A stretch of DNA of 64,000 bases from contig NZ_AYKG01000007.1 in the NCBI RefSeq assembly GCF_003788585.1, positions 1 through 64,000 on the forward strand, given 5' to 3'. Below, piece by piece: positions 3,525 to 5,223 of the stretch. This stretch comes from Salinisphaera japonica YTM-1. GTDB taxonomy: Bacteria > Pseudomonadota > Gammaproteobacteria > Nevskiales > Salinisphaeraceae. The translations under genes were made by a program, and so were the position numbers. Each line of letters opens with the position of its first letter. The first letter of the stretch is position 1. Under the pieces are notes generated by a model, which was not told the DNA's origin, did not search any database, and saw nothing but the letters and a program-made list of their open reading frames with translations.

Positions 3525-3977
3525 CTACTCGCCGTCGTCGTAACTCTGGCTGCTGGCGCCGCCGCTGCGATTGTAGTTACGTACGTCCTGGCTCAGTTTC
3601 TGTGTGGCGCGTTGTTGTTCAAGTGTGCGTTGACGTTCGACCGTTGCGGGTTGTCGACCATCGATTGCCGAACTGCTGTCGTCGGGCTCGCTAGTGCGGT
3701 TGTAGGCATCCACATCACGGGCCAGATTCCGGGCTGCCGGATCAGCCGAGTGGTCGTTGGCCGGCGTACGGTTGGCGTTATTCAACGCCGGTGCGCTTGT
3801 CTTGCTTTGTGCGTTGTATTGATCGATTTGAGTGCCTATCGTGTTCTGATCCTTAATCTCCGAGGGTGTGCCATCGATCGTGGCTTTTGCAGCAGGCTCT
3901 GAGTGAGAGGCGCATGCGCTCAGACCACCAAGAATAGAAAGCAATAAACAATAGGTTAACCGTCTGTTGTTATTCAT
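3525..3977 (-). CDS. Small lipoprotein with three YN-motif repeats
   Basis: A predicted lipoprotein of 150 aa. The ATG at 3977 is preceded by AGGGG at good spacing, and the N-terminus MNNNRRLTYCLLLSILGG leads to a lipobox LSAC. The mature part is hydrophilic, rich in Ala, Ser, Asn and Gln, and contains three copies of a short motif ending in YN: TQIDQYN, LARDVDAYN and LSQDVRNYN. The next gene upstream encodes a paralogue with the same three motifs. I do not recognise the family. It is transcribed separately from the paralogue, because an intrinsic terminator lies between them. Confidence 0.75.
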   Translation of the reverse strand: MNNNRRLTYCLLLSILGGLSACASHSEPAAKATIDGTPSEIKDQNTIGTQIDQYNAQSKTSAPALNNANRTPANDHSADPAARNLARDVDAYNRTSEPDDSSSAIDGRQPATVERQRTLEQQRATQKLSQDVRNYNRSGGASSQSYDDGE

Positions 3978-4075
3978 ATTTTCCCCTTTAAAAGATTTAA
4001 TTGTTTTATACAAGGTAAATATGATATCCGCTTTTCTTGTCGGGCGCTGTTATACGATTGGCCGACACCGAGACA

Positions 4076-4106
4076 CAAAAAAGCCGGGGTGTGTCCACCC
4101 CGGCTT
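4076..4106 (-). terminator. Intrinsic terminator of the YN-motif exported protein gene
   Basis: Perfect 11-bp stem (4081-4091 with 4096-4106), 4-nt loop, followed on the minus strand by six or more T residues (the A-run at 4077-4082 on the plus strand). Confidence 0.9.
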
Positions 4107-4133
4107 CTATCGACTGGCTATTTGTTGCCGACG

Positions 4134-4580
4134 TTACTGAATCATGGCGCTTGATTGGCCGATCCCGTCCAGCGAGCCGCCGGTCTGGTTGAAGCGCGTG
4201 ATTTCGCGTCCCAGTGCCAGGGCCTGACGGTTGGGGCCGTTGCTGTAATTGGTTGTATCGCTCACCGGGCGGAGTTCGCCGTTATACGCGCGGATATCGA
4301 AAGCCAGGCGTCGAGCCGCCGGCGTGACTGGCGTATTGGTCACCGCAGTCGCGTCAATGGCGCTCGGCGCGACTGCGCCGGTGTTGGGCCGCGTGTTGTA
4401 GGCATCGATTGCGTTGGCCAGGCGCGCGGTACTCGCACTTTGGCTGGCCGCCGCCACGCTCGGCGAGGCGGGCGCTGTCGTTTTTGTCTGCATCGCCTCG
4501 AGCGTCTCCTGCTGGGCGAACGCTGTAACGCTGGTCAGCAGCAGGGTGGTCGTCAAAAGAGCGTATGTCTTAAAAGCCAT
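4134..4580 (-). CDS. Small exported protein with three YN-motif repeats (paralogue)
   Basis: A 148-aa protein with a cleavable signal peptide (MAFKTYALLTTTLLLTSVTAFA, then QQE) and no lipobox. The ATG at 4580 is chosen for GGAGG seven nt upstream; a TTG six bases earlier would sit too close to it. Three motifs, LANAIDAYN, LAFDIRAYN and LGREITRFN, match those of the neighbouring lipoprotein, and the second is embedded in a shared PAARxLAxDxxAYN block. A periplasmic or secreted location is predicted; function unknown. The two genes look like a tandem duplication in which one copy keeps a lipid anchor. Confidence 0.75.
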   Translation of the reverse strand: MAFKTYALLTTTLLLTSVTAFAQQETLEAMQTKTTAPASPSVAAASQSASTARLANAIDAYNTRPNTGAVAPSAIDATAVTNTPVTPAARRLAFDIRAYNGELRPVSDTTNYSNGPNRQALALGREITRFNQTGGSLDGIGQSSAMIQ

Positions 4581-5223
4581 GTCCAAACCTCCAATGAAGC
4601 CGGTGTCGATACATCAGGCTTCTGAATCTGGAGCGAACTATACGACTTTAGATGTATTGACACAAAGCGGCTGATTTATATTTCTATTAAGCCTATGTGT
4701 TGTTGCGGCGGGCATTTCGTGGTTCGGCATCGAAAAACAAAACCATTCAAAGGGTTATGTATTTCGGTGTGACACAACGCCACGGGCCGCGGTCGATTCG
4801 CGCGGATGCAGCTCGCGCAAAATGACATTGAAATACTGTTTTAGATGCGCCGTATTGGCTCGATAGTCTTACGCTTTAGTCGAAGTTGGCAACGACTCGC
4901 GAGCGCGTCGGCGCCGATATCTCAGCGCGAATAGTGTGGCGTACGAGCGTATCGGCGGCCAGTCGGGCTACACCTTTTGGCTTATATATTTTGAATGTCT
5001 TGGCGGCGAGCGTTCTGTTGGAGTGCGATAAGAGACTGTTTTTTATAAATTTTTAAAGATTGGCCGATGGTCGGCCGGTTTTGGCCGGTCTGCGTTGGGA
5101 GCATCCCTGTTTGCGCCGGCCGAGCGCGGCGCGCATACCCATGCAAAGACGTTGGGTTTGCCCGGCATCGTTTCGGGGTCGACAAGGCGTTTCCTATTCG
5201 CAAACGTTCAGCGGGAGAGCACC
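4581..5223. other. 643-bp intergenic region, no gene recognised
   Basis: This stretch is less GC-rich than its surroundings, with an AT-rich patch around 4975-5060. It must carry the promoter of the leftward YN-motif gene and of the rightward small membrane protein. No RNA gene, repeat or convincing promoter pair was identified. Confidence 0.5.

Follow-up and report, generated by a model that had tools for sequence, protein, structure and literature searches.

Two proteins, F2 and F4, were found in exactly the 10 Salinisphaera genomes that carry a tandem pair of small exported proteins, B and A; the remaining four genomes searched in the genus had neither F2 nor F4 (0/4). This observation is new, and the association of B and A with F4 and F2 is moderately supported. 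The reading to which we give most weight, at a probability of about 0.4, is that B and A are small envelope accessory proteins that serve an outer-membrane module formed by F4 and F2. The pair lies in the window, by which we mean the whole stretch of 64,000 nucleotides analyzed from Salinisphaera japonica YTM-1 (genome G000).

Genes B and A and their repeats

The features of the locus are as follows.

4640..4651, plus strand: ATACGACTTTAG, a partly palindromic conserved site, 60 bases before B
4134..4580, minus strand: gene B (open reading frame), 148 aa, plain export signal, three [YF]N repeats
4395..4421, minus strand: B repeat 1, core LANAIDAYN (pattern and repeat profile)
4281..4307, minus strand: B repeat 2, core LAFDIRAYN (pattern and repeat profile)
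4188..4214, minus strand: B repeat 3, core LGREITRFN (pattern and repeat profile)
4079..4108, minus strand: terminator-like hairpin 3' of B and ahead of A, 13-pair stem and then a T run
3525..3977, minus strand: gene A (open reading frame), 150 aa from its ATG, paralogue of B, three YN repeats
3813..3839, minus strand: A repeat 1, core IGTQIDQYN (pattern; outside the strict form and unlisted by the repeat profile)
3699..3725, minus strand: A repeat 2, core LARDVDAYN (pattern and repeat profile)
3570..3596, minus strand: A repeat 3, core LSQDVRNYN (pattern and repeat profile)

The original prediction had described tandem paralogous exported proteins. Both open reading frames are as it gave them, and the profiles of B and A align with an hhalign E-value of 1.1e-15, which identifies the two proteins as paralogues. 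Separate transcription of the two genes, also proposed, is plausible because a terminator-like hairpin with a 13-pair stem follows B (4108-4079, minus strand); across the scanned region five terminator-like sites were observed versus 2.8 ± 1.8 in shuffled sequences. The claim that one protein is a lipoprotein and the other has a plain signal peptide fits the sequence of the window genome, where the signal of A ends in the lipobox LSAC, but not beyond its closest kin: inspection of the aligned A orthologues by eye found a lipobox in the window genome and in its nearest relative, G011 (2/10), and none in the other eight A proteins. As judged from sequence, a lipid anchor is not a trait of the B/A family.

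Each repeat has a nine-residue core with a final [YF]N, and the consensus for B and A is about PxAxxL[AS]x[DE][VI]xx[YF]N, with three copies per protein. The stricter formula given originally, [LI]-x2-[DEA]-[IV]-[DRT]-x-[YF]N, fits 5/6 copies (all three in B and two of the three in A), as IGTQIDQYN of A has Q at the [DEA] position. When mature B and A were shuffled (20,000 times each), at most one motif copy appeared, with either the exact or the looser pattern. The block PAARxLAxDxxAYN, said to be shared by the two proteins, does occur in both in the window genome; in relatives its conservation is not strict.

What is kept is the asparagine. In separate alignments the three Asn residues are invariant in 10/10 B and 10/10 A proteins, so the expected conservation of the motif in orthologues was confirmed. 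In a combined alignment (A3) of 18 of the 20 orthologues, from which the A proteins of G003 and G007 (four repeats each) were left out, Met1 and the three Asn alone are invariant; the linkers between the repeats vary across orthologues. A comparison of the window genome with G011 gave 90% identity for the B repeats and 77% for the B linkers, while the repeats of A (67%) are no better kept than the linkers of A (72%). We discarded the presence of Asn in 62/62 repeats collected with the loose pattern as evidence of conservation, since this pattern itself demands [VIL], [YFH] and N and the argument is circular; the alignments found by homology were used instead. Among these 62 copies, Ala occupies position -3 in 45 and Leu position 0 in 58, and Gly is common after the Asn. 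Together with the required [VIL] and [YFH], Ala and Leu make up a predicted heptad-like hydrophobic face.

Structure prediction, the check proposed for repeating YN helices, gave an AlphaFold2 model of B with three helices (43-63, 87-102 and 117-132) that end at the motifs, each within two residues of the Asn (N62, N100 and N131). The mean pLDDT of this model is 53.3, with 66-73 in the best helix blocks, and it is with low confidence that the YN segments may be said to form repeating helices.

ATACGACTTTAG or a close form of it precedes B in all ten genomes. In nine of them the distance is 47-63 bases, and in G004 it is 98 bases; in G010 the site has two mismatches. The site is a rare one: we counted 20 copies of the ATACGACTTTNG form across the 14 genomes, nine of these before B, compared to nine occurrences of a reversed control pattern. 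By eye, the site extends to an operator-like inverted repeat in G013 and some other genomes. A B-type site also stands 42-57 bases before a gene for an acetyl-CoA-synthetase-type AMP-ligase in G000, G010 and G011 (L167:1501, L159:1501 and L170:1501; assigned by Pfam for G000), and perhaps the same regulator acts on this gene and on B. A site common to the B and F4 promoters was not found close to F4; a match with two mismatches in G004, about 390 bases ahead of where F4 presumably starts, was judged to be due to chance.

Distribution and relatives of the family

The B and A proteins of the window had no match above cut-off in Pfam, NCBIfam or PHROGs (the best Pfam score, to DUF1180, had an E-value of 0.15, under the cut-off), and none was found in Pfam at E 0.01 for 18 of the 20 orthologues. 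Sequence relatives in the PDB were not convincing (best E-values 0.26 for B and A, 0.023 for F2 and 0.4 for F4), and no paper on B or A was found in the literature, judged by title. These results support the suggestion, made at the outset, that B and A represent an undescribed envelope protein family, at least in the libraries searched.

In profile searches the pair was present in 10/14 Salinisphaera genomes and in 0/71 other genomes of the order (E 0.001; in many genomes the best-ranked candidates were scored). A scan of genome_contigs with one narrow pattern yielded five loci: one is titled Lysobacterales (isolate SP48), its contig being that of G011, and the other four are titled Salinisphaera. 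As far as searched, that is in the 71 other genomes of the order and in the narrow pattern scan, the B/A family thus appears confined to one genus. With a profile of the repeat alone, every match at E <0.03 in the 14 Salinisphaera genomes fell in the B and A genes, and the four genomes without the pair had no match at E <0.5. Plasmid-borne relatives of B were looked for and none was found.

Several weaker profile matches were rejected. We attributed to chance a match of B in G025 (E 0.009, with internal stops) and one of A in G049 (E 0.006), and inspection of the locus of a match in G004 (E 8e-4) revealed no repeat protein. Matches in G012 and G013 (E 0.003) span only the signal and the first mature residues. 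A small exported protein without repeats, B-like in its signal and in its first mature residues (QEEAIADYN), is encoded at loci L052 and L053 (G013:C9 and G012:C71).

G009 carries a second, diverged B-A pair at L061:12935-14108 (G009:C4, about 68934-70107), adjoined by a second copy of F2 and F4; this pair is absent from all alignments (A1-A3). In it YE, FE or YY replace most of the YN, which shows that duplication can be followed by loss of the Asn. We gave little weight to the joint duplication as support for a link of B and A to F2 and F4, because neighboring genes were copied too, as in one segmental event.

The partners F2 and F4

F2 is lipoprotein-like and about 325 aa long, and F4 has about 470 aa and a C-terminal Phe. 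Outer-membrane barrels end in Phe, and we infer that F4 is such a barrel. F2 and F4 come after the pair in six genomes (G003, G005, G007, G009, G012 and G013), although G009 has a remnant of F4 nearest to the pair and its other F4 copy is fragmented. A KASIII-like gene and an AMP-ligase gene lie ahead of the pair in both G009 and G012. In the other four (G000, G010, G011 and G004) F4 and F2 lie together on a different contig from the pair. There the pair adjoins an MscS-type channel (assigned by Pfam for the window) and a cytochrome-oxidase cluster (one gene assigned by Pfam) in G000, G010 and G011, while in G004 it is apart both from F4-F2 and from this setting. In the window's own genome the F4-F2 gene pair, which matches no Pfam family, is found at:

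L112:8187-10619 (G000:C5, outside the window): F4-F2 gene pair

Its neighbors are Liv-type permeases, ATPases and a binding protein, as well as IclR, acyl-CoA dehydrogenase, SDR, APH, SurE and AMP-ligase genes, and by similarity most or several of these genes are also near F4-F2 in G010, G011 and G004. The perfect 10/4 match between the pair and its partners would arise by chance once in 1001 if the genomes were independent, but they are related: on the RecC tree the set of pair, F2 and F4 needs three changes, two of them forced by starred branches.

In the class (369 genomes, with the best 4-5 candidates per genome scored) F4 was found in at least four genomes and F2 in at least nine, G000 and G003 being counted in both. 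Outside the genus five of the seven F2 matches span the C-terminal part only, and F4 and F2 occur together in G155. No three-repeat [YF]N protein was found close to relatives of F4 and F2 outside the genus, in nine regions of eight genomes including G155. In a distant genome of the class, G284 (L138:8534-11280), a gene for an F2-like lipoprotein lies directly ahead of a FadL/TodX gene.

No Pfam family was found for F4 (G005 and G000), FadL/TodX (PF03349) included, or at the cut-off for F2, for which FlgT_C scored under it (E 0.013). The predicted F2 structure (mean pLDDT 53.7) has its best Foldseek matches, across both its domains, in an LPHT-ring chain (E 3e-10) and FlgT (1.1e-8), a likeness to be read in light of the low-confidence model; matches to TolB, GNA1162, LpoB and PelC were weaker. 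TM-scores normalized by query length are low (0.22-0.28 for FlgT, the LPHT ring and TolB; 0.24 for FlgT), and the VIA comparison with FlgT gave a Z of 7.9 and an rmsd of 7.9 over 183. In contrast to FlgT, TolB and LpoB, F2 is a lipoprotein encoded beside a barrel-like protein, and the comparison concerns F2 rather than B or A. The partner module likewise recalls FadL/TodX, given the arrangement in G284 and the acyl-CoA genes near F4-F2, but F4 itself differs in having no Pfam match.

Possible roles of the pair

If B and A are accessory proteins of the F4/F2 module, each would consist of three short amphipathic helices in an otherwise flexible chain. The residues on the hydrophobic side of each helix (Ala, Leu, Val/Ile, Tyr/Phe) would be in heptad spacing and the helix would stop at the Asn, often with GG next; the three helices would dock repeatedly onto the F2/F4 assembly, and the module may handle fatty-acid-like compounds. 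The accessory role is supported by the co-occurrence of F2 and F4 with the pair even in the four genomes where they are on another contig, by their position next to the pair in the other six, and by a RecC tree on which at least two changes of the set are forced. The invariant Asn of all B and A proteins and the modeled helices that stop at the motifs also speak for it, as do the Liv-type transporter, acyl-CoA dehydrogenase and ligase genes around F4-F2 and the FadL/TodX gene behind the distant F2 relative in G284. Against it, the six genomes with pair and partners hold them as one linked block, which a single event could have moved; F4-F2 of G155 have no [YF]N protein nearby; the B site was not found before F4; the models of B and F2 are of low confidence; and the second pair of G009 lacks most of the Asn. 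An extension of the same idea, in which B, A, F2 and F4 would be an undescribed four-part envelope machine, with the three helices of each flexible protein as plugs for an F2 ring or for the F4 barrel and a function in gathering hydrophobic substrates or in a surface structure, we consider unlikely.

Almost as likely as the accessory role is an independent one, in which B and A would be periplasmic or secreted proteins, for instance salt- or stress-related helical linkers, and their link to F4 and F2 would have come about secondarily, through common ancestry and an island at the recC locus. This would agree with the separate positions of the pair and F4-F2 in G000, G010, G011 and G004, with a B site not common to F4, and with a co-occurrence that rests on just two to three changes in the tree; the presence and absence of the genes nevertheless agree perfectly in the 14 genomes, unlinked cases included. 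It is less probable, indeed rather doubtful, that B and A bind greasy compounds directly, in the manner of small apolipoprotein-type helices or an emulsifier. Amphipathic helices in heptad spacing, the acyl-CoA gene neighborhoods and the copy of the B site before the acetyl-CoA-synthetase-type gene would suit such binding, but the helices are short and few, and the invariant Asn cap would point to a specific partner.

Finally, the pair can be compared to the subunits of surface fibers. Fap (FapB/FapC) and curli (CsgA/CsgB) are exported paralogue pairs with imperfect repeats, a conserved Asn per repeat and a membrane partner. Like them, B and A are adjacent exported paralogues; each has three imperfect repeats joined by linkers that vary, and every repeat contains an invariant Asn. 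B and A also have a candidate barrel-like partner, F4, through which they might be exported. In contrast to Fap and curli, they match no family profile in Pfam, and no Fap- or curli-type export operon surrounds the pair, the neighbors being other genes. Moreover, the repeats of Fap and curli are strand-forming and amyloid, whereas those of B are helices in the low-confidence model, and in two genomes A has a lipobox. That B and A are fiber subunits is the least probable of these explanations, and we regard it as remote.

The analysis provides a short, testable list of candidate partners for two proteins without a match in the annotation libraries searched. If the pair does serve F4 and F2, B and A would represent a novel type of helper in the handling of greasy compounds at the outer membrane, and would clearly exemplify the threefold use of a short helix as a docking unit.
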